Shown in pieces: positions 4,179 through 23,076 of a stretch of 36,092 nt of DNA (the stretch's first letter is position 1; every line of letters starts with the position of its first letter). The position numbers and the translations under genes were made by a program. Origin of the DNA: an uncultured Pirellulaceae bacterium (GTDB lineage Bacteria; Planctomycetota; Planctomycetia; Pirellulales; Pirellulaceae); NCBI GenBank assembly GCA_937928555.1, contig CALFWR010000155.1, positions 1 to 36,092 of the forward strand, read 5' to 3'. The notes beneath the pieces are model-generated. The model ran no database searches, was not told the DNA's origin, and saw only the letters and a program-made list of their open reading frames with translations.

Positions 4179-5621
4179 GTGCAAGATCGCAAGAAAAAAG
4201 AACAGGTTAGCGAAGAAGTCGCCGTCGTTGTGCGTGTGCAATTCCCTGACGATCCGGTCGAACTTGATCCCGTCGAAGAGATCCATGGCCTGGCGGAAAC
4301 AGCCGGAGCGATCGTGATGGGTTCGATGATCCAGCGCCGCGAGAAACCCGACACCACGACGTACATCGGCAAAGGCAAGGTCGCCGAACTGAAGGAACTG
4401 GTCGAATTCCATGCCGCCGATGTGGTGCTGTTCGACAACAACCTGTCTCCGGCTCAGAATCGCAATCTTGAAAACGAACTGAAGGTCAAAGTCCTGGACC
4501 GGACCGAAGTCATCTTGGACATTTTTGCCACCCACGCCCGGACCCATGAAGCCCGCTTGGCGGTTGAACTGGCTCAGTTGGAATACGCCCTGCCGCGACT
4601 GAAGCGAATGTGGACGCACCTTTCGCGACTGAAGATGGGCGTGGGCATGCGTGGCCCGGGTGAAAAGCAACTCGAAACCGACCGCCGTTTGGTCGAAAAG
4701 CGAATTCACGATCTCAAAGACGAGCTTCACAAAGTCGAGAAACGAAAAGAACGTCAGGTGAACTCGCGCCGCGGCACAATGACGGTGTCTTTGGTGGGCT
4801 ACACCAACGCGGGCAAGAGTACTTTGATGAACGCGCTGACCAACGCGGAAGTCCTCGCAGCGGACAAACTTTTCGCGACGCTCGACACGCGGACTCGGCG
4901 CTGGCAGCTTCCCCAGTGGGGACCGATTTTGCTTTCCGACACCGTCGGGTTTATTCGCGATTTGCCGCACAGCCTGATCGCCAGCTTCAAAGCCACTCTG
5001 GAAGAAACCCGCCAAGCCGACCTGCTGCTGCACGTTGCCGACGCGAGCAACCCCAAGGTCATCGATCAGATCATTTCGGTCTACGACGTGCTTCGCGAGA
5101 TCGGTGTGGAAGAAAAAGATACCCTGCTGGTGCTGAACAAGATCGACCAGGCTCGAGAACTTCCGCACTACAACTCGTTGCTGGAACGTTACTCCAACGC
5201 CGTCGCGGTCAGCGCCAAAACGGGTGATGGCTTTGACAAACTACACACCGTCGTGGGAGACGCACTGAGCCGCTCGTTTCAGAATGTGGACATCGAAATG
5301 TCGGTCAGCAACGGCAGATTGTTGGCTTACCTTGCCGCCAAAGGCGACATTAAATCGACGCAGTATCGCGAAGACGCAATTCTGGTCCATTGCCGGATCC
5401 CACAAAAGTACCTTGGCCGGATCGACTACGACGACGCAATCATTACACCGCACAACGCGGCGGGCTGGAAAACTGACCAAGAGATTGCGGCCGAATCGCA
5501 AACGGCAACGGAATTCGATTCTGTGTCCGAAACCGAATCTGACAATCCCCTGGTGGACCCCGTTATTCCGCCCACAGAAATCGAATCGGTGGCGGACCCG
5601 ACTGAGGCAACTCAGGATTGA
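4179..5621 (+). CDS. hflX: GTPase HflX
   Basis: 480 residues. HflX is a ribosome-associated GTPase that splits stalled or heat-damaged 70S ribosomes. The N-terminal HflX domain shows TTYIGKGKVAEL and FDNNLSPAQNRNLE. A coiled linker with GMRGPGEKQLETDRR precedes the G domain, which has G1 GYTNAGKST (about 207-215), G3 DTVGFI (about 254) and G4 NKID (about 320). The start is GTG at 4179, the only reasonable start codon in this frame near the domain start; no good Shine-Dalgarno sequence is seen. The last 50 residues are an acidic Glu/Thr-rich tail absent from the E. coli protein. The stop overlaps the start of the next gene (TTGA), suggesting translational coupling. Confidence 0.95.
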   Translation: MQDRKKKEQVSEEVAVVVRVQFPDDPVELDPVEEIHGLAETAGAIVMGSMIQRREKPDTTTYIGKGKVAELKELVEFHAADVVLFDNNLSPAQNRNLENELKVKVLDRTEVILDIFATHARTHEARLAVELAQLEYALPRLKRMWTHLSRLKMGVGMRGPGEKQLETDRRLVEKRIHDLKDELHKVEKRKERQVNSRRGTMTVSLVGYTNAGKSTLMNALTNAEVLAADKLFATLDTRTRRWQLPQWGPILLSDTVGFIRDLPHSLIASFKATLEETRQADLLLHVADASNPKVIDQIISVYDVLREIGVEEKDTLLVLNKIDQARELPHYNSLLERYSNAVAVSAKTGDGFDKLHTVVGDALSRSFQNVDIEMSVSNGRLLAYLAAKGDIKSTQYREDAILVHCRIPQKYLGRIDYDDAIITPHNAAGWKTDQEIAAESQTATEFDSVSETESDNPLVDPVIPPTEIESVADPTEATQD

Positions 5622-10949: not shown

Positions 10950-11289
10950 GCTCGTTACCGCTGAACGCTGGGCCCAATAAAATCGATCGTGCCCCGATGG
11001 CTAGTTGGTGGGAGATGCGCGATCGCCAGCGGTGACGAACCTCAATACGGCAACGCCCCTTCGCATCAAAAACCGCCATAAGATCGCGGTTTTTCGCTAG
11101 CGTTTCGCGACTCAAACACGTGACCTTGCAATCTGCAATTCCGTTTCATTCCTTTTTTGCCGGAAAAACGGAACAGCCACAATCTTCGCTAAATTCCCTA
11201 CAGCTTAAATGGCGATTGAGTCATTGGAACGCTGGGGTAGTGCCCCATCTGCCTTGCCGCAGTGTTTCTGACAACTTCAGGGGAAAACC
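10950..11289. other. Intergenic region before the envelope operon
   Basis: 340 bases with no credible gene. It contains one terminator-like hairpin (11068-11094, listed separately). The stretch 11150-11215 is A/T-richer and probably holds the promoter for the gene at 11290, but no clear -35/-10 pair could be assigned. Confidence 0.5.
11068..11094. terminator. Probable bidirectional rho-independent terminator
   Basis: AAAAACCGC (11068-11076) pairs with GCGGTTTTT (11086-11094) across a nine-base loop. The A-tract and T-tract make it usable on either strand. It lies about 120 bases after the ABC transporter operon. Confidence 0.6.
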
Positions 11290-12504
11290 ATGACAAGCGA
11301 AGTCTACAACAGGCGAATCCTGAGCAGTTTGATGTTGGCAGTTGCCATCACCTCTCTGACTTATACCGGATGCAGCCAGCCCATTCGGCGACTTGGCATT
11401 ATCGATGAGCTCGCGATCTCGTACCGTGATCAGGTTTGGGCTCGTCGTGCCTACAACCTCCGTTTCGCAAACTGCAACCGTCAGTTCGAAAGCCATTTTG
11501 AAAATGGTTTTTGTGCGGGCTATTCGGACGTTTGCAACGGCGGCGACGGATTTGTTCCGGCTCTTCCACCGGACGAGTACCGCGGATTCGAGTACCAGTG
11601 TGCCGAAGGCTCCAACTGCATCGACGCATGGTTCGACGGTTACCCCGCTGGTGTTGCTGCTGCTCGTGAAGAGCGAGTCGGCAAGTACCACGAAGTTCGC
11701 ACCTCGAACATGATCGACCGGGCCATCTCCCAGCAGAAAGCACCGAACAAGCTTCCCGCTGACGTACCGGTCACCAAACCGAACGCGAACCTGATCCCAC
11801 CAACTGCAACCGCCAAACGACTCGGGCCTCTGCCGAAGTCCGTTAAAGCGACGTCGGTTCTGCCGAAGATGAGCGAACGTGTCTTTGGCACCAGTCAGCC
11901 TGTTTCAGTTGCTAGGAATGGCGCTTCGAGGCTGACACCGTCAACGCCACGTGTTGCCCAATCGACGCTTCCGCTGTCAGCACAGAACGCAACTCGCAAT
12001 GCACCGCCTGTTCCGCTGCAACCGGTCAGGAAAGCAACAGAAACTGCTCCCCAGCCTGTTCGGACTCCCGCACCGGCAACCGGTTCGAGCACCAAACCCT
12101 CAACCTCGCCACAGCCATCGGCTTCCAGTGCCCCTCCGATTATCACTGCCCATAGAAATCGCCGGGTTGCCAGACCGCAGGCTCCACTGGAACCCGGGAC
12201 AGCTTTGATCGCGTCGAGCAACTCGTTTACTCCACCGATCATCCGTCGTGGCAAGCCACAGATTGAAACGCAAGCCATCCCTGCTGTTCAGTCGATCCAA
12301 CCGGTTTCGCACGGCACAGAACTTCCGCCGACCTACCGCGGCCAGAAGATGGACACGTCGGCTCGAGCATTGCTTCCGCCAATCATTCGCGGAAACAAAA
12401 TCGATCCCTCTGCAACAGTCACCGAAGCAGAAACGTCGGCACCACTTTACTACTCAAGCCGAACTGCACGTCAACAGTCCACTTCTGGATCACAGACGCG
12501 ATGA
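11290..12504 (+). CDS. Exported proline-rich lipoprotein, function unknown
   Basis: 404 residues. The N-terminus (LSSLMLAVAITSLTYTGCSQ) is a signal peptide with a probable lipidated Cys28, though the lipobox Thr-Tyr-Thr-Gly-Cys is atypical. Residues about 35-130 form a compact Cys-containing domain (FANCNRQF, FCAGYSDVCNGGDGF, YQCAEGSNC), with four or more Cys that may form disulfides. It is followed by a long low-complexity Pro/Thr/Ser/Ala region to the end, with repeated PPII-R-G segments (PPIIRRGKPQ, PPIIRGNKID). I recognise no family. AGGGG precedes the ATG at a short distance. The stop overlaps an ATG of the downstream polysaccharide-export gene frame, so a role in cell-envelope or exopolysaccharide assembly is inferred from context only. 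Confidence 0.75.
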   Translation: MTSEVYNRRILSSLMLAVAITSLTYTGCSQPIRRLGIIDELAISYRDQVWARRAYNLRFANCNRQFESHFENGFCAGYSDVCNGGDGFVPALPPDEYRGFEYQCAEGSNCIDAWFDGYPAGVAAAREERVGKYHEVRTSNMIDRAISQQKAPNKLPADVPVTKPNANLIPPTATAKRLGPLPKSVKATSVLPKMSERVFGTSQPVSVARNGASRLTPSTPRVAQSTLPLSAQNATRNAPPVPLQPVRKATETAPQPVRTPAPATGSSTKPSTSPQPSASSAPPIITAHRNRRVARPQAPLEPGTALIASSNSFTPPIIRRGKPQIETQAIPAVQSIQPVSHGTELPPTYRGQKMDTSARALLPPIIRGNKIDPSATVTEAETSAPLYYSSRTARQQSTSGSQTR

Positions 12505-13995: not shown

Positions 13996-14019
13996 AGCAC
14001 CCCATGAAGGATTCGAACC
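13996..14019. other. Left attachment site core (attL)
   Basis: AGCACCCCATGAAGGATTCG and the next four bases are identical to 23002-23025. The sequence is the antisense of a tRNA T-arm and acceptor stem, a classical tyrosine-integrase target. No 5' tRNA half accompanies this copy. Confidence 0.85.
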
Positions 14020-14203
14020 AACCCAAGATTCCCAAGGGAAAAAAGACGTTTCTGGTTTTGGTGGTGCAGGGGGTGGTGCAGAGACCGTCAAAACAGAGCT
14101 CGAAAGGCGTCTTCTAAGCCTGTTTCGTCAACTGCCCGAGGACGAACAGCGACGACTGATTGAAGAACTCGAAACGCTCCAATTCCCTTCCGGGAAGCCC
14201 TAG
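14020..14203 (+). pseudogene. Stranded C-terminal tail of the element integrase
   Basis: The frame running through the left att core reads ...PHEGFEP, exactly as the integrase does at the right core, then continues for 60 residues (TQDSQGKKDVSG ... LPEDEQRRLIEELETL ... SGKP) to the TAG at 14201. It has a Gly/Ala-rich stretch (GGAGGGA) and an amphipathic Leu/Glu/Arg helix. If the two cores are joined in the excised circle, this becomes the natural end of the integrase (412 + 60 = 472 residues). In the integrated state it has no good start; a TTG at 13973 has a ribosome-binding-like GGGAGG only three bases away. The general pattern, a Gly-rich segment followed by an LP-E helix, resembles tails I recall from planctomycete integrases. 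Confidence 0.65.
14061..14080 (+). repeat. GTGGTGCA repeat pair, left arm-type site candidate
   Basis: Two GTGGTGCA octamers (14061-14068 and 14073-14080) in a 20-mer identical to 22872-22891 near the right end. Their placement 42 bases inside the left core is typical of integrase arm-binding sites. Confidence 0.5.
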
Positions 14204-14285: not shown

Positions 14286-15857
14286 CTATTGCCAAGACTT
14301 AATGCATTCGTAGATCTTCTTGACCTCACATTCCAAACCGTGATTGAATTCAGAGAGCTTTTTGTCTCCACCCCAAGAGTGAATACGTCTTCTTGCTTGT
14401 TCCATCTTATTTTTTAGGGTTATCTTAAGGCTGGCATCGTCCATGTATGACTCTATGGTTCGAGAGTCTGTATCCCCTTTTCTGAACCAAAATCCATACT
14501 TGAATCCCTGCTTTGCATGTTTCTCTTGTTCCAGCAACATTGCATCTTTTGCGTCCTCAAAAGTCGCGTAGCTGTCAACTTCGTCCTGCTCATTCCGAAA
14601 CGCATCGCTGTCCATCACCAAGAATGCATTTCGGCTAACGCGCAGCATCGAGAACAGCTTCTCAACTGATTCTTCTACCGATACCTTCGCACTGAAAAAG
14701 TAATAGCGTAGGCATCCGCCCGCCGTCATTTGAAAGGCAAAATCGTGGTGCCGCCTGAATATCGGAAGTCCTTTTTCAACCGCGTACATCTCAAGCCATT
14801 TTTGGATATAGAGGGCGTCCGACGGTCCCTCCACCCAGATTATTCCGTTGCATTGCAATAGGTCAGCACCCAATGCTCCAAGTTCGTCCAACAAAGAGTG
14901 GCCGCCATCCCACACCTGTTCGACCCTTGTCGTGAGTCGAAAAGTAGGCTGTCGCTTGTGGACAAGCTGCCCGTCGTCGTATTGAAACTCAGTGTGCTCC
15001 ACGTCTTTTTCATAAAACCTGTAAATCGCCGCATCAGGCTGTAACGACAGAAAGCAGTTTATGAAGACGCTGGAATGAGAAGCGATAAAAAATTGATTGA
15101 AGGACATTGCCTCGTTCGGTCGCTTCTGAAAGCCGCATGATTTCAACTGATTGGAAAAGAACCCGTCAATCTTCTTGCAGCAGATCTCCTTCGTAAAACA
15201 GCAGCTATTCTGATTCGCAGTGCTAATCAACCAGACCAAGACGTCAAACAGCCGGCGAATTGATTTCGGTTCTAGGTGCCGTTCTGGTTCGTCAAAAAAA
15301 ACCACCTCGCTCCCCGGATTGGAGAAAAGCCCGAGGAACAGCTTTATCAATGAGAAGGCTGAGGAGGGCAGCGTGTTTGTGTCATTAGTCCAATCGTAGT
15401 AGGTGAATTGATCACGTTCCCGCTTGAAACTTCCGTCGTCAAATCGGTATTGATCCTTCAGAACATAGCTGACTACAAACTGCAAAAGGACTTGATCGCA
15501 ATACTCAAGCTGGACAAGTTGTTCTGTCGGGTCCGTTATGGAATAGTCCACCATCAGAAGTTCGTCAGGGTAACTGCTGTCGACACTTTCAAAATCGACA
15601 GCAGAGTATTCGAATGACTTGTCTGGCTGCTCAAATTCGACTCTCAGAAAACGCTCCATCTTGAAGTCTCGAGACTCCCGGTTTTGGACGTCTCTGTAAT
15701 CGAGCTTCTGTTTTGGCAATGTGGAAAGAAGTTGCATTGCATTTGTTTTGCCGATGCCATTTTGACCAATGAATAGGTTGAGTAATCCAAAACCTTCGAA
15801 TTCGCATTTGTCACAAAATGCCTGAATTCCTTGAACTGACATGCTCTTGATTTTCAT
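14286..15857 (-). CDS. OLD-family ATPase/TOPRIM nuclease, probable anti-phage protein
   Basis: 523 residues from ATG 15857, which has TAGGGA just upstream and starts the ABC-type ATPase domain (MKIKSMSVQGIQAFCDKCEF). Walker A is GQNGIGKT (31-38), Walker B VVFFDEPERHLEP (about 184-196) and the switch His is in FFIASHSS (about 257). A C-terminal TOPRIM domain shows WVEGPSD (Glu about 341), FLVMDSDA (about 414) and an ESYMDD segment typical of OLD nucleases. This AAA-plus-TOPRIM order is that of OLD/GajA-like proteins, which cut DNA upon phage infection. No UvrD-type helicase is adjacent, so a stand-alone class 1 OLD is likelier than Gabija. The ABC signature is degenerate (LPSSAFSLIK). By eye the gene is A/T-richer than its host flanks, consistent with acquisition. 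Confidence 0.85.
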   Translation of the reverse strand: MKIKSMSVQGIQAFCDKCEFEGFGLLNLFIGQNGIGKTNAMQLLSTLPKQKLDYRDVQNRESRDFKMERFLRVEFEQPDKSFEYSAVDFESVDSSYPDELLMVDYSITDPTEQLVQLEYCDQVLLQFVVSYVLKDQYRFDDGSFKRERDQFTYYDWTNDTNTLPSSAFSLIKLFLGLFSNPGSEVVFFDEPERHLEPKSIRRLFDVLVWLISTANQNSCCFTKEICCKKIDGFFSNQLKSCGFQKRPNEAMSFNQFFIASHSSVFINCFLSLQPDAAIYRFYEKDVEHTEFQYDDGQLVHKRQPTFRLTTRVEQVWDGGHSLLDELGALGADLLQCNGIIWVEGPSDALYIQKWLEMYAVEKGLPIFRRHHDFAFQMTAGGCLRYYFFSAKVSVEESVEKLFSMLRVSRNAFLVMDSDAFRNEQDEVDSYATFEDAKDAMLLEQEKHAKQGFKYGFWFRKGDTDSRTIESYMDDASLKITLKNKMEQARRRIHSWGGDKKLSEFNHGLECEVKKIYECIKSWQ

Positions 15858-15864
15858 TGGTTCC

Positions 15865-16506
15865 CTAGTTCTTCTTTCTAAATTCCCAAGGTGGAATCGG
15901 ATCAGGGTCGGCCCACAAGCCAACCTTCGACGCGCGGGCCTGCTGCTCTAGCAAGCCTAGTGTTTCCGATTTTGAGTACCGGTCGAATTCCCACGCCAGC
16001 CCGGCTCGGACCATGGCATCCCCAACATCCTCACCCAACACGTAGACGAATCCAATGATGCGTCCCCATCGATCAACGTCTATTTGGAATACGCAGATAT
16101 CGCGATTGAAAACCATGGCCGCCAGGGCTTCTCTTGATTTTTCGGCGTATGCTTGCCCGCTTCTTTTCTTGGGAGCATCAATCGCGGCCAATCTAACCCG
16201 GCGCTCTTCGTTGCTGTCGCCATTGGTGACCAATACCTTGATCGTATCGCCATCAGTGACGCCAACGACTTTCCCGTAGAACGTCTGAACGATGTTTTCA
16301 CCATGGATGACATGCGTAGTGGTTGTCGGTGGCAACACGCTTGCAGTCGGCTGCGCTTCCTCCAGCTCTTTGGTGGGCTGTTCGCCAACCTTCTCGACCT
16401 TCTCAATGGTCTCTAGTTGTTTGGCTTGTCGCTCCGTCTCTCCACATCCAGAAAATCCGATAACGCAAGCAAGAACGGTCAGGATTGAAGTCTTCATATG
16501 CGCCAT
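15865..16506 (-). CDS. SNase-like (thermonuclease-fold) lipoprotein
   Basis: 213 residues from ATG 16506 (MAHMKTSILTVLACV), with GAAG upstream; Met4 could also serve. The signal peptide ends in a lipobox (IGFSGC, Cys21), then a Glu/Lys/Thr-rich spacer (about 25-70) and an SNase domain (about 75-205). Conserved are DGDT (85-88), Arg105 and Asp110 (VRLAAIDAP) and Arg149 (DRWGR), equivalent to staphylococcal Asp21, Arg35, Asp40 and Arg87. However, the catalytic Glu43 position is Lys113 (DAPKK instead of DAPE), so hydrolysis may be lost or altered. It is predicted to sit outside the inner membrane. It lies seven bases upstream of the OLD-type gene, so the two are almost certainly co-transcribed. 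Confidence 0.85.
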   Translation of the reverse strand: MAHMKTSILTVLACVIGFSGCGETERQAKQLETIEKVEKVGEQPTKELEEAQPTASVLPPTTTTHVIHGENIVQTFYGKVVGVTDGDTIKVLVTNGDSNEERRVRLAAIDAPKKRSGQAYAEKSREALAAMVFNRDICVFQIDVDRWGRIIGFVYVLGEDVGDAMVRAGLAWEFDRYSKSETLGLLEQQARASKVGLWADPDPIPPWEFRKKN

Positions 16507-16943
16507 TTTTTCTTCAGTTCGATCGAGGGGGCCTATTGGTGGGCGTAGCCCGTATCGAAGGCTTTTTTCTAGCTGGGGGGCAAAAAATCTGAGTGACACA
16601 TGACACATCAGAATGGTTGCAGTGGATGCCATTTTCTGCGGAGGTGATAAAATCGTCTAGGTTCCTCTGAGGCGGTAGCGTCCCCAAGAGAGGTAAAAAA
16701 GGCCGCTGAACCCCGCACACAGAGTCCGGCGCAAACCGGGAAAGTTTTGAGCGACACGTAAGATGTAGGGTTGCCCGTCCATTTCGATGGCAGATGGTGG
16801 CAGACGAAACAGGCTTTTCAGGCCGGTAGGGAAACAAAAGGTACTTCGCTGGTTTGATACCGAATTAAGACCGCTGGGCGAACACCCGCGGCGCACAAAC
16901 TGATCGTACTCGTAAGCCCTTTGGGGTAGGGGGCCCGTCTGCC
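16507..16943. other. Intergenic region inside the element
   Basis: About 440 bases between the divergent SNase-like gene and the 101-residue gene, with no convincing frame. It should hold promoters for both directions, but none could be assigned. A distant 8-bp inverted pair (GGCAGACG 16799-16806, CGTCTGCC 16936-16943) is present, and the run GGGGTAGGGGGCCC sits just before the start at 16944. Confidence 0.45.
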
Positions 16944-18461: not shown

Positions 18462-18594
18462 TTTGGAGCGCGAATTCCAGAGTCGCCTAATTCGCGCTCG
18501 AGATTTTCAAAAAAACTTCGCTGTTCTTCGCCAGCGTATCAGGTGCTTCTACCCTTTGTTTGGAGCGCGAATTACATGAAATAATTTGCGCTCG
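18462..18594. repeat. Twin interrupted palindromes, putative origin or operator
   Basis: The 15-mer TTTGGAGCGCGAATT occurs at 18462-18476 and 18559-18573. Each copy is followed by its inverse: AATTCGCGCTC at 18489-18499 (perfect 11-bp arms) and AATTTGCGCTC at 18583-18593 (one mismatch). The two palindromes are 97 bases apart, separated by an A-rich tract (TTTTCAAAAAAACTTCG), and lie directly upstream of the excisionase/primase operon. This layout fits a replication origin bound by an initiator or a double operator of the operon. Confidence 0.6.
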
Positions 18595-18612
18595 AAATCG
18601 TCCCGTATCGTG

Positions 18613-18662
18613 ACTCCATCAGCCCACCGCCATGTCGGCACCGGGCATCACACTGATGGAGT
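18613..18662 (+). promoter_or_regulatory. Hairpin that would sequester the xis ribosome-binding site
   Basis: ACTCCATCAG (18613-18622) is the exact reverse complement of CTGATGGAGT (18653-18662). The right arm contains the GGAG (18658-18661) that serves the ATG at 18671, so folding of the leader would hide it. Confidence 0.45.
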
Positions 18663-18670
18663 ACGAAACC

Positions 18671-18871
18671 ATGAGAGACACATCTACCGCCCCTGCTGGG
18701 GCACTATCCCGCGTCGAGGCCGCCGCGTACCTGAGCATATCCACCCGACTGCTAGACGATCTGCTGACCGCCGGGGAAATCCAAAAAATCAAAATCGGCC
18801 GCAAGACGCTGGTGAGAGTCATCGACCTAGACGCGTATCTGGCCGAGCTTGCTGGGGAGGTGGTCCAGTGA
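18671..18871 (+). CDS. Excisionase-like HTH protein
   Basis: 66 residues from ATG 18671 (GGAG nine bases upstream); in-frame ATGs at 18632 and 18656 lack comparable signals. LSRVEAAAYLSISTRLLDDLLTAGEIQKIKIGRKTLVRVIDLDAYLA matches the winged-helix HTH_17/excisionase (MerR-like) pattern, with the characteristic G-R-x-x-V/L-V....L..YL ending. In an integrated element such a protein would direct excision by the integrase and/or regulate the operon it heads. Its stop overlaps the start of the primase gene. Confidence 0.85.
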   Translation: MRDTSTAPAGALSRVEAAAYLSISTRLLDDLLTAGEIQKIKIGRKTLVRVIDLDAYLAELAGEVVQ

Positions 18872-19716
18872 GCATGACCAGAGTATCACGACGTAGACCG
18901 TGTCCGATCTGCGAGCGCCCCGACTGGTGTTTGGTGGCCGCCGATGGACCGGCTGCGATCTGTCAGCGCATCGAGTCCGATCATCGTGTCGGTGATGCCG
19001 GATGGCTCCATCGAATCCGGGATGACTGGACACCACCACCGCGGCGCGTAGTACGTCGATCATCACCACAACCGACGATCGACTGGGCCGCACGCCACGA
19101 GCGATATCGGCGCAGCCTGACCGCCGGTGGACGCGATCACGTAGCATGCGCGTTGGGCATCGCCAGCACTACCGTCGATCGGATGGCGATCGGCTGGTGT
19201 CCATCACGCAGTGTATACACATGGCCGCTATGCGATGGGCATGGCCGCATCGTCGGCATCCGCACCCGCGCCAGTCATGGCGCTAAGCGAGCCGACAACG
19301 GTAGCGATGGTAGTGGTCTGATCTACGGCCCGCATCTGTCATCGCGATATCTGCTGATCGCGGAGGGCCCGACCGACACGACCGCATTGGCCGACTGTGG
19401 CTATCTGTCTGTGGTCGGTCTGCCATCATGTCGATCCGGCACCTGCTACATCATCGACCTGATCCGCCGACTGCGACCGGCTGCGATAGTGCTGGTCCCT
19501 GATCGGGATGATGCGGGTCTATCGGGGTTCGCCAGCGTGGCTGGCTCCATCATCGACAGTGGAGCTATCCCACTGATCCGCATCGACGCTGTGGTGCCAC
19601 CGACTGATGCAACTGACGCCCGAGCATGGGCAAAGAAAAACCGCAAAGACCTGACCAAGACCATTGCGGAGAGTATCACACGCATCACATCACGTAGCAC
19701 GGAGGCCACCGCATGA
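18868..19716 (+). CDS. TOPRIM primase with CHC2-like zinc motif
   Basis: 282 residues from GTG 18868, seven bases after GGGGAGG and overlapping the xis stop (GTGA); ATG 18874 is the alternative. The frame is open upstream, but that stretch is antiphase to xis. An N-terminal zinc motif (Cys12, Cys15, Cys21, Cys32: CPICERPDWC...AAICQR) is typical of phage and plasmid primases. The TOPRIM domain has LLIAEGPTD (Glu166) and LVPDRDDAG (Asp212, Asp214). It likely primes replication of the excised element. Codon use is dominated by CGA/CGC/ATC, and the gene holds 14 GATC sites. Confidence 0.85.
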   Translation: MSMTRVSRRRPCPICERPDWCLVAADGPAAICQRIESDHRVGDAGWLHRIRDDWTPPPRRVVRRSSPQPTIDWAARHERYRRSLTAGGRDHVACALGIASTTVDRMAIGWCPSRSVYTWPLCDGHGRIVGIRTRASHGAKRADNGSDGSGLIYGPHLSSRYLLIAEGPTDTTALADCGYLSVVGLPSCRSGTCYIIDLIRRLRPAAIVLVPDRDDAGLSGFASVAGSIIDSGAIPLIRIDAVVPPTDATDARAWAKKNRKDLTKTIAESITRITSRSTEATA

Positions 19717-21269
19717 CACATCCACATCATATCACACACATCGACCCCGAGCATGGTCTGACTCTGCAACCGCCTGAGCGACCGCCAGAATATCAACCGT
19801 GGCCGATCGACACGTTGCCCGAGCCTTTACGATCGTTGGCCATAGAAGGCGCTGAGGCTCGGCAATGCGATCCCGTGTTGATAGTTCTGCCAATGCTGTC
19901 CACTGTTGGGGCGGCAATTGGGAACGCGCGGCACCTAACCGCCAAAGACGGCTGGCACGTCCCCGCGATGCTGTGGACGTTGTTCATTGCCGAATCAGGC
20001 AGCGTAAAGACGCCCGCGATGAAATTAGCAAAGCGACCGCTTGAAGACATCGAACACGATGCTTGTACGTTGTTTGATCGGCTCGATGCCGAACACGCCG
20101 AAGCTGACGAACAATATCAAGACGAATTGAAGCAATGGCGTAAGAAACACCAAGGCGAACGCCCGGCAGCGCCAGAGCCGCCGCATCCAATCCGGTACAT
20201 CGTGAAGGACACGACGTTAGCGGGGCTAGTCGAGATCCTGCAAGACAACCCGCGTGGTTTGCTGGTGCCAACCGACGAACTAGCGGGCTGGTTTGGCTCG
20301 TTCAACCGGCACGACAAAGGCGGTGGTGATGCGCAACAGTGGATTAGCATCTACTCTGCTGAGGCCATAAGCGTAGACCGCAAAGGCAATCGCAACAGCC
20401 GTGGCGTCATCCGGCCCATCAAAGTCTATCGCCCGTTTGTCGCGATCACCGGCGCGATACAGCCGGGGCTATGGTCGCACGTCGTCACCGCCGAGCATCA
20501 GGCCAGCGGGATGGCAGCGCGTTTTCTAATGGCGTGGCCACCGCGAAGATCAAAAAAGTGGAGCGACACCACCGTCAGCACGTCCACTGGTGAAGCCTAC
20601 GCTTCGCTGATTCGAAAGCTGATCGAGCTCGACCATGACACGACCGACAGTGGGCACTATTGCCCAAAATACATCGGGATGGATGCGCACGCCAAACGCT
20701 TGTATCGCGACTGGTACAATCGCCACAACCTCGATCACGTAGACCGTGATGGCAGTCTTGCTGCCGCCAGCGCTAAGATCGAGGAGATACCGCTTCGGGT
20801 TGGCCTGATCCTACATTGTGTTCGATGCGCGACCGGGGAATGCCAGATTGATCGAGTCGATGCTGACACAATGCGGGCCGCCATAACGATCGCCGATTGG
20901 CACATGGCCGAAGCTGAACGTATCTACGCCATTATGGCCACCGAGTCGTCATCCCGGCCTCATCGCGAGCTTGCTGATTGGATCAAGGCGAAAGGCGGAT
21001 CGATCACGGCCCGCGAATTGGTGTCAGGTAAACGCATGATCAAGACAGCGGATCAAGCCACCGAACGACTCAACGCTCTCGAGTCAGCGGGTTATGGGAA
21101 TTGGCAAAATGTTCCGACAACCGGCAAGGGTGGGCGGCCATCCCGAAAATTTGTGCTTGCGGGTGTCAGCGTCAGCACAACCCCACCCAAACCCGAGGAA
21201 AACAGTAGTTGTGCTGACGCTGACAGTGCTGACACGCGAAAAATGAAAACCAAGAGGGTGACAGTATGA
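19713..21269 (+). CDS. DUF3987 (YfjI-type) element replication protein
   Basis: 518 residues, starting in an ATGA overlap with the primase gene. PVLIVLPMLSTVGAAIGNAR, the P-loop-like AESGSVKTPAMK (about 93-104), VKDTTLAGLVEILQDNPRGLLVPTDELAGWFGSFNRH and AARFLMAWPPR are the recognisable DUF3987 blocks. These proteins resemble primase-associated helicases and accompany TOPRIM primases on phages and islands. The Walker A position reads SGSVKT, with Val where Gly is usual, so ATP binding may be weak. The C-terminal 110 residues look like a winged-helix domain (RELADWIKAKGGSITARELV). It ends in an ATGA overlap with the next gene. Confidence 0.8.
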   Translation: MTHPHHITHIDPEHGLTLQPPERPPEYQPWPIDTLPEPLRSLAIEGAEARQCDPVLIVLPMLSTVGAAIGNARHLTAKDGWHVPAMLWTLFIAESGSVKTPAMKLAKRPLEDIEHDACTLFDRLDAEHAEADEQYQDELKQWRKKHQGERPAAPEPPHPIRYIVKDTTLAGLVEILQDNPRGLLVPTDELAGWFGSFNRHDKGGGDAQQWISIYSAEAISVDRKGNRNSRGVIRPIKVYRPFVAITGAIQPGLWSHVVTAEHQASGMAARFLMAWPPRRSKKWSDTTVSTSTGEAYASLIRKLIELDHDTTDSGHYCPKYIGMDAHAKRLYRDWYNRHNLDHVDRDGSLAAASAKIEEIPLRVGLILHCVRCATGECQIDRVDADTMRAAITIADWHMAEAERIYAIMATESSSRPHRELADWIKAKGGSITARELVSGKRMIKTADQATERLNALESAGYGNWQNVPTTGKGGRPSRKFVLAGVSVSTTPPKPEENSSCADADSADTRKMKTKRVTV

Positions 21270-21790: not shown

Positions 21791-23065
21791 ATGGCAAGCG
21801 TAAGTTTTGAGAAACGCGGTGGCAAGCGTCTGGCCCGCGTCTGGTTTGAGATCGATGGAAACCGCAAGTCAATCCGACTTGGGGAAATCAGCAAGCGAAA
21901 CGCTGATACTGTTCTTTCCCACGTGCGAGAACTGGAAGCATGCAAACGTATTGCCGACAAGCCGGATCCCCGGACACGGGGTTGGCTCAACGAGATAACA
22001 GATGAATTCCACGAGAAACTGGCTGAAGCTGGACTGATCCCTCACCGCGACAGACGAACCGTGAAGCAGTTTTTCGATGATTGGGCTTCGGATACGCGCA
22101 TCGTAGATAACAGCAGAAGGAACCGTCGAAACACGGTCACCAAAGTGATTGAAGCTTTCGGCGCTGAAACCGCGCTTCGGGATGTGTCGCCTGAACAGGC
22201 TGACCGGTTCTTCGCGGACATGACCGACCGGTATTCGCGGGCTCACGCCAACAAGATCACGAAACGAACGCGGCAGGTATTCGCCAAAGCCGTACGGTTG
22301 AAGATCATCACGGACAATCCTTTTGCGGATATTCGCATCGGCGATGAATCCAATACGGATCGGCAGGTATTCGTGGACGCCAAGACCATCGAAAAGGTCA
22401 TCAGTGAGGCTACCGACAACGAATTCAAGCTGCTGATCGCGTTGGCCCGGTATGGTGGACTTCGCGTTCCCAGTGAAATCGTGGGGCTCAAGTGGGGACA
22501 CGTGAACTGGGAAACTTCCCGCATCGAGATTACGGACACGAAGCGCAAGCGGACTCGCATCATTCCAATATTTGAAGAACTGAGACCGCACCTTGAGGCA
22601 TGGTGGTGGGATGAAGCGTCGGACGGCGCAGAGTACGTCATTCCCAGCTACCGCGATGCAAACCGGAACATCCGAAGCCGGCTGATCCGAACTATCAAAA
22701 GAGCTGGTTTAACTCCGTGGTGCAAGCCGTGGCAGAATCTCCGATCATCGCGCGAGACCGAGCTGGCCGACCGTTTCCCGATTCAGGTGGTGACGGCATG
22801 GATTGGAAACAGCGTCGCCGTTGCCAAGCGCCACTACCTTCAAGTGACCGATGGGCACTTCGATGCAGCAAGTGGTGCAGGGGGTGGTGCAATAGTGGTG
22901 CAAAGTGGTGCAAATACGGTGCAGAGCCCGCAAGCAACGAACAGCACCGAAGCGGGAAAAACCGATGTTTCCTCAATTGTCCCGGTATACAGCACCGTTC
23001 CAGCACCCCATGAAGGATTCGAACCTCCGCTTCGGATCGAAAAATCCGACGTCCTTGGCCGCTAG
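21791..23065 (+). CDS. Tyrosine integrase of the element
   Basis: 424 residues as found here. AAGGAG lies about ten bases before the ATG. An N-terminal SAM-like arm/core-binding region (about 80-170; VKQFFDDWASDTR) precedes the catalytic domain: Arg225 (GGLRVPSEIVGLKW), the box-II region NLRSSRETE, in which the usual His of HxxR is not present, WIGNS, and the nucleophile Tyr349 (RHYLQVTD). After residue 358 the tail is Gly/Ala/Gln-rich (GAGGGA) with embedded GTGGTGCA DNA repeats. The last 14 residues (EPPLRIEKSDVLGR) are read antisense through the tRNA-Glu-like gene, which the gene overlaps by 62 bases. The att core lies within codons 404-412, so the tail differs between integrated and excised states. 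Confidence 0.95.
   Translation: MASVSFEKRGGKRLARVWFEIDGNRKSIRLGEISKRNADTVLSHVRELEACKRIADKPDPRTRGWLNEITDEFHEKLAEAGLIPHRDRRTVKQFFDDWASDTRIVDNSRRNRRNTVTKVIEAFGAETALRDVSPEQADRFFADMTDRYSRAHANKITKRTRQVFAKAVRLKIITDNPFADIRIGDESNTDRQVFVDAKTIEKVISEATDNEFKLLIALARYGGLRVPSEIVGLKWGHVNWETSRIEITDTKRKRTRIIPIFEELRPHLEAWWWDEASDGAEYVIPSYRDANRNIRSRLIRTIKRAGLTPWCKPWQNLRSSRETELADRFPIQVVTAWIGNSVAVAKRHYLQVTDGHFDAASGAGGGAIVVQSGANTVQSPQATNSTEAGKTDVSSIVPVYSTVPAPHEGFEPPLRIEKSDVLGR
22872..22912 (+). repeat. GTGGTGCA repeat cluster, right arm-type site candidate
   Basis: Four GTGGTGCA octamers (22872-22879, 22884-22891, 22895-22902, 22905-22912), with a near copy CGGTGCA just after. The first 20 bases are identical to 14061-14080. 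They lie about 90-130 bases inside the right core, within the integrase gene. Confidence 0.5.
23002..23025. other. Right attachment site core (attR), within the tRNA 3' end
   Basis: 24 bases identical to the left core. They cover the acceptor 3' strand and most of the T-arm of the tRNA-like gene, so insertion preserves that sequence. To its left is element DNA, to its right the rest of the tRNA. Confidence 0.85.
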
Positions 23066-23076
23066 ACGAATGGGGC
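23004..23076 (-). tRNA. tRNA-Glu(UUC)-like gene, unusual anticodon loop
   Basis: 73 nt. Acceptor GCCCCAT pairs with ATGGGGT (one G-U), the D-arm is GTCT/GGAC with AGCGGCCAA as loop, and the T-arm is GGAGG-TTCGAAT-CCTTC, all as in tRNA-Glu. CCA is not encoded. The anticodon stem TCGGA/TCCGA encloses TTTTTCGA: eight bases, not seven, with a three-base variable region where four is usual. UUC fits the anticodon if one U is bulged. Total length is still 73. It may be a functional variant or a decaying copy. Confidence 0.75.

Follow-up and report, generated by a model that had tools for sequence, protein, structure and literature searches.

The DNA analysed here (the window) is a contig of 36,092 nt from an uncultured Pirellulaceae bacterium, and it carries an integrative element of ~9 kb whose two ends are marked by exact copies of a 24-nt core (Table 1). 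The gene that runs into the right-hand core encodes a tyrosine recombinase/phage integrase, as judged by a match above the cut-off to Pfam PF00589 and by a match to PHROG 1. Its frame passes through the core, which it reads as PHEGFEP, and closes with PLRIEKSDVLGR, encoded antisense to a tRNA gene. The original prediction, made from the sequence alone, placed attP inside this gene and proposed that integration exchanges the C-terminus of the enzyme, with a possible switch of activity, stability or direction as the consequence. In agreement with its structural part, the two cores proved identical over 24 nt and in the same phase, the chromosomal C-terminus comprised 12 residues antisense to the tRNA, and joining core to core, as in the excised circle, reproduced the open frame of 472 aa that had been claimed, consisting of integrase residues 1–412 and 60 codons from 14021–14200. 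A crossover at any point within the identical core gives the identical fusion product. The 424-aa chromosomal form retains the entire Pfam catalytic domain, and the left-end tail of the window is free of in-frame ATG, GTG and TTG before its last 28 codons.

Table 1 Features of the integrative element, its integrase gene and its target in the window
Feature	Position	Strand	Evidence
Left 24-nt att core (attL)	13996..14019	+	Exact 24-nt repeat
Orphan integrase tail, 61 codons and stop, in frame with int upon circle formation	14018..14203	+	
Pair of GTGGTGCA arm-type repeats within the tail frame, spaced by 12 nt	14061..14080	+	
Codons of the predicted helical hairpin (helices at residues 19–38 and 41–55 of 61)	14072..14182	+	AlphaFold2
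Left-end cargo ORFs	14286–15923 and 15865–16632	-	PADLOC; protein-family scan
Excisionase-type HTH gene, candidate directionality factor	18632..18871	+	TIGR01764 above cut-off; HTH_17
Tyrosine integrase, chromosomal 424-aa form	21791..23065	+	Pfam PF00589, 7.9e-12; PHROG integrase, 3.6e-28
Clustered GTGGTGCA/GGTGCA arm-type repeats in the int gene, upstream of the core	22872..22923	+	
Right 24-nt att core (attR), read in frame as PHEGFEP	23002..23025	+	Exact 24-nt repeat
tRNA-Glu target (attB), 3' end restored by the element	about 23003..23076	-	Rfam tRNA, 46.6 bits; ARAGORN, anticodon unnamed; congeners
Chromosomal C-terminus, 12 residues and stop, antisense to the tRNA	23026..23065	+	

The target was read by eye as a tRNA-Glu gene, with its boundary at 23003 or 23004. 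Its anticodon loop is of odd length and ARAGORN left it unnamed; the same program, applied to 11 congener loci, returned tRNA-Glu(TTC) at 7, tRNA-Lys at 1 and the unnamed outcome at the remaining 3. As judged by eye, the length of the chromosomal C-terminus, 12 residues, hinges on this odd-length loop. We compared the insertion site with those of two congeners, G318 and G308: the homologue of the gene on the left flank stops ~110 and ~80 nt, respectively, from the tRNA, and no element intervenes. Relatives thus show the empty site.

Beside the excisionase and integrase genes lie primase-like and DUF3987 helicase-like genes (18586–21269, plus strand), a layout resembling that of a small phage satellite; the primase-like and excisionase ORFs overlap in different frames. 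The cargo at the left end consists of an AAA ATPase, for which PADLOC gave AriA as the best match, and a staphylococcal-nuclease-like protein.

We then collected related integrases. These were found in 28 of 294 genomes spanning the phylum (E up to 1e-30) and in at least 93 of 197 relatives (E up to 1e-50). From named genome contigs, 80 of at least 579 confirmed loci were kept, mostly titled as planctomycetes, and viral contigs contributed 76 loci; the phylum assignment of related loci rests on the contig titles. The plasmid and phage collections returned 2 and 3 records, respectively, none covering 80% of the query and all below 60% identity. By sequence, the known structures closest to the recombinase part were those of XerC/XerA-like recombinases and Tn1549 Int, and by fold, using a model of the relative L168, those of Tn1549 Int, XerA and lambda Int. 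The fetched sequences contained 253 distinct integrase genes (a subset of the listed matches, with identical genes and tails collapsed and loci L001, L002, L032–L038 and L304–L333 omitted here and from the element set below): 145 run into an antisense tRNA, 4 end just short of one, 98 are tRNA-less and 6 run off the contig. Overlap with the tRNA was thus the rule among antisense-tRNA-associated integrases (145/149).

When the window tail and core were searched pairwise against the 294 genomes, the best other match had E 0.003 and was unconvincing; left ends were subsequently located through the core rather than through tail similarity. This yielded 43 elements, namely the window and 42 others whose fetched DNA included a left core of 15 nt or more. 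In 39 of the 43, the integrase frame stayed open beyond the core for a tail of at least 40 codons, as against 7 and 12 for the other two frames, and the median tail lengths were 58, 20 and 17 codons, respectively. With a leave-one-out profile, which was built from the other elements and excluded tails half identical or more, 35 of the 43 tails were recognised at 5 bits or above, and all 35 were in the integrase frame. These recognised tails cover the three phases of the integrase relative to the tRNA (20, 9 and 6 cases); the co-variation of the tail frame with the integrase phase is the strongest single result. In an earlier set of 35 tails the true frame scored best in 33 and exceeded all 200 shuffles in 30. 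The window tail itself scored 8.2 bits against the profile from the other elements, and the highest of its 200 shuffles scored 2.9.

The conservation of the tail was also assessed at the level of codons. Over the helix part of 32 tails, identities at codon positions 1, 2 and 3 were 0.37, 0.46 and 0.31, compared with 0.28–0.29, 0.25–0.27 and 0.26–0.27 in codon-shuffled controls; seven tails (L082, L255, L262, L249, L250, L257 and L285) had been excluded from this count beforehand and were kept in the start-codon and 43-element counts. Since third positions also lie above the shuffled values (0.31 versus 0.26–0.27), the conservation may be partly at the DNA level. Pooled pS and pN were 0.44 and 0.24 per site over 74 tail pairs with at least 55% amino-acid identity, which are non-independent and include six identical pairs, so that pN/pS is indicative only. 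A tail profile matched at least 134 of the 197 related genomes (E up to 0.01); this profile (A2) drew partly on genomes later searched with it and also contains the tail of locus L070. A tRNA-like core peptide was seen by eye upstream of the left-end tails found with the profile in 27 of 30 loci (not in L323, L331 and L333), several of which are elements already counted. The comparison shows the predicted hairpin tail to be conserved as a protein, and in frame with the integrase, across related elements, which indicates that it has been selected while fused to the integrase.

Several observations count against the explanation that we favour below. Eight of the 43 elements (L285, L082, L249, L250, L255, L257, L258 and L262) yielded no tail at 5 bits or above. 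The L258 tail is in frame at 4.3 bits, the best weak score falls out of frame in L249, L255 and L262, and the cores of L285 and L082 measure only 15 nt and may be due to chance. The window tail lacks the common Trp. The closest integrase among the matches listed, that of genome G305 (72% identical), has a tail ORF on the same contig, and no repeat of at least 10 nt was found linking this ORF to the 3' end of the integrase gene. Some variants were also noted by eye: the tails of L255 and L262 are similar to each other, and L249 and L352 appear to share another type of tail (FRGKTY...AGDSRGI), which is short and lacks the hairpin motif. At locus L145, the left and right copies (5492–5620 and 11194–11322) share 129 identical nt, far beyond the usual core.

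Among the 98 tRNA-less integrase genes, 11 continue uninterrupted into the tail; two of these (L182 and L243) have the same terminal sequence, and the tail of L070, another of them, is also part of the profile. By eye, a tRNA-like core peptide lies between integrase and tail in 8 of the 11 and is ambiguous in L176, L181 and L341. Seven of the 11 are on IMG/VR contigs, which were taken as unintegrated because the tRNA is absent. Junctions of tandem elements fuse the integrase frame to the tail of the next element at L070, where the N-terminus of the upstream integrase looks damaged, and at L351/L340, which is an integrase fragment. Two results point the other way with respect to the favoured explanation: in L350, integrase and tail are adjacent and their frames differ, and in 40 of the 98 tRNA-less integrases the C-terminal extension is shorter than 40 codons, so that there is no such tail there. 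The comparison with homologues, set beforehand as the test of the original prediction, left it standing, with frames that cross the core into homologous tails and with contiguous tail-bearing genes. At the level of sequence, the position of attP inside the integrase gene and the exchange of the C-terminus are supported by the core, the fusion frame and the relatives.

We next considered the DNA around the core and the fold of the tail. The motif GTGGTGCA occurs 7 times in the 36-kb window, always on the plus strand, with 2 copies beside the left core (14061 and 14073) and 5 in the integrase gene (22717, 22872, 22884, 22895 and 22905). Summed over the 43 elements, 352 direct 8-mers are common to both sides of the core where 22.4 are expected, as against 46 inverted ones, and the direct sharing is individually significant at 0.05 in 33 of the 43. 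Since arm repeats flank the core on both sides, the whole attP lies inside the reading frame. AlphaFold2 folded the window tail alone as a hairpin, with a pLDDT of 97 for residues 31–50, 78 for residues 21–30 and 51–60, and 75.6 as the overall mean. For the contiguous relative L168, the model contained a confident recombinase and a hairpin at residues 463–492 (ten-residue means of 75–93), separated by residues 374–461 over the translated attP with pLDDT below 50. On these models, the tail would form a helical hairpin carried by a linker of translated attP.

Family searches with the tails gave few matches. A Pfam scan of 29 tails returned one weak Spectrin match (E 0.024), and a profile search of the PDB gave a best E of 0.17, to a Csp231I C protein. 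With PHROGs and NCBIfam, applied to 27 tails, the window tail alone resembled DicA-type regulators: its frame (14018–14200) is like their C-terminal helices (PHROG 5736, E 1.6e-6), a likeness found in 0 of the 26 others. One tail weakly matched TIGR02574 (E 0.022). The DicA-type and TIGR02574 likenesses are leads only.

The comparison shows two encoded enzyme forms that are tied to the state of the element, with the part exclusive to the circle under selection. We consider it probable that this is an integrase with an embedded attP, in which the hairpin raises or directs the activity of the circle form and its loss leaves a weaker or excision-biased enzyme. In the circle, a single gene would encode a 472-aa recombinase followed by the translated-attP linker and the C-terminal hairpin, which may act in integration or in holding the synapse together. 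Upon integration into tRNA-Glu the gene is cut at the core, ends in the antisense tRNA and encodes the 424-aa form with its catalytic domain intact; the hairpin codons are stranded at the opposite end of the element, where they have no evident start of their own. The product of recombination would itself set the state of the enzyme, reversibly, and the excisionase of the element would drive exit. Because this excisionase is encoded separately, the swap would act alongside it and not replace it. By analogy with phage Mx8, the reading we favour is a switch of activity or direction; that precedent points to a chromosomal form weaker than the circle form (PMC4701971). A more far-reaching version, to which we give somewhat less than an even chance, is a memory spread across the Planctomycetota in which the circle-only hairpin sets direction beside the separate excisionase: the enzyme with it would integrate, and the enzyme without it would stay or excise.

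Several other explanations of the tail were weighed. The hairpin may be needed in the circle, for instance for tail-to-tail contacts in the synapse, with no regulatory switch at all, and a disordered linker that tolerates attP would then allow a compact int-attP module to be exchanged as a single unit. The low-confidence linker predicted over attP in L168 agrees with this, the likeness of the window tail to DicA-type C-terminal helices hints at subunit contacts, and an argument for compactness has been made for archaeal suicidal integrases in a review (PMC8371274). However, it can be argued that a tail required for all activity would leave the chromosomal form unable to excise, yet its catalytic domain is whole and the excisionase is kept; we regard this explanation as possible and clearly the less probable. 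A role of the tail as a degradation signal that integration takes away, on the model of mycobacteriophage BPs, is unlikely. The geometry is the same as that of the BPs repressor, whose viral form carries an ssrA-like tag according to excerpts of PMC4557955, but the conserved part here is internal, an amphipathic hairpin, and the tails differ in both length and sequence at their extreme C-termini, where no common tag was seen by eye.

Two further explanations would detach the left-end frame from the integrase. One is a separate small gene with its own expression. Of 39 left ends, 22 have some in-frame ATG, GTG or TTG ahead of the last 28 codons, but an in-frame ATG stands there in 7 of 39 and any start with a Shine-Dalgarno-like sequence in 5 of 39, which makes independent expression of the orphan tail unlikely as a rule. 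Moreover, all 35 recognised tails follow the integrase phase, which a separate gene would not need, and we hold this explanation to be very improbable. Least credible of all, to the point of being nearly negligible, is an open tail that arises by chance or from DNA-level conservation of arm sites. The GGAESGA-like stretch does represent translated arm repeats, common as DNA to both sides of the core; the hairpin, however, lies largely beyond them, and both the conservation of amino acids and codon positions and the in-frame placement of every recognised tail argue against such an origin.

The favoured switch has precedents. That the logic is known from phage repressors, as the original prediction stated, holds for BPs, in which, according to excerpts of PMC4557955, integration at attP within the repressor gene shortens the product; what it overlooked was prior art for an integrase, in phage Mx8. 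The principle of C-terminal exchange in a bacterial integrase was established there (sections of PMC4383910, PMC6070905 and PMC4701971): integration swaps a C-terminus of 112 residues for one of 13, and the modified enzyme is reported, in the sections seen, to be less active (PMC4701971) or altered in specificity (PMC6070905). As in Mx8 IntP, the attP core in the window lies in frame inside a tyrosine integrase gene and the C-terminus is replaced, and the Mx8 protein record, read by eye, has a tRNA-antisense-like peptide, STGLEPV, where the core is expected. Mx8 Int scored 8.2 bits with the integrase profile and 1.6 bits, outside its tail, with the tail profile. Neither a homologous tail nor a close integrase relationship was found, and these scores do not suggest descent of the window integrase from Mx8 Int. 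Whereas Mx8 is one phage, many planctomycete elements share a common hairpin tail.

In archaeal suicidal integrases of the SSV type, the gene is likewise split by integration at an internal att site, which leaves two inactive parts (PMC8371274, in part). Their catalytic domain lies in the C-terminal part; in contrast, the catalytic domain here stays whole and the tail alone is exchanged. The planctomycete elements and Mx8 represent milder, bacterial cases. The likeness to the integration-dependent immunity of BPs is that the form of a protein is tied to the state of the element through an attP inside its gene, but the BPs gene encodes a repressor and not an integrase, and its lost end is ssrA-like-tagged. 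Streptococcal ICEs in rumA differ, with a serine integrase and a protein gene as target. In the excerpts consulted, very few elements are said to have an att site within the integrase gene (PMC4701971), and recombinases that disrupt their own gene are described as restricted to archaea (PMC8371274).

A literature search with planctomycete terms, which covered few subscription journals, returned no report of such an arrangement in Planctomycetes. As far as these searches go, the phylum-wide family, the conserved hairpin and an attP wholly embedded in a coding linker appear to be new. With the tail profile matched in at least 134 of the 197 genomes, placement of the att site within the integrase gene is widespread in this bacterial integrase family, and the conserved domain that goes with it has no evident place of work other than the circle form. 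This may explain why many of these integrases apparently end in a tRNA-antisense peptide, and why orphan small ORFs with the same motif lie at the opposite end of such elements. How site-specific recombinases acquire direction is a long-standing question, and the two forms provide a natural pair of enzyme states with which to address it. If the reading as a memory is true, the enzyme would both report and enforce the state of its own DNA.
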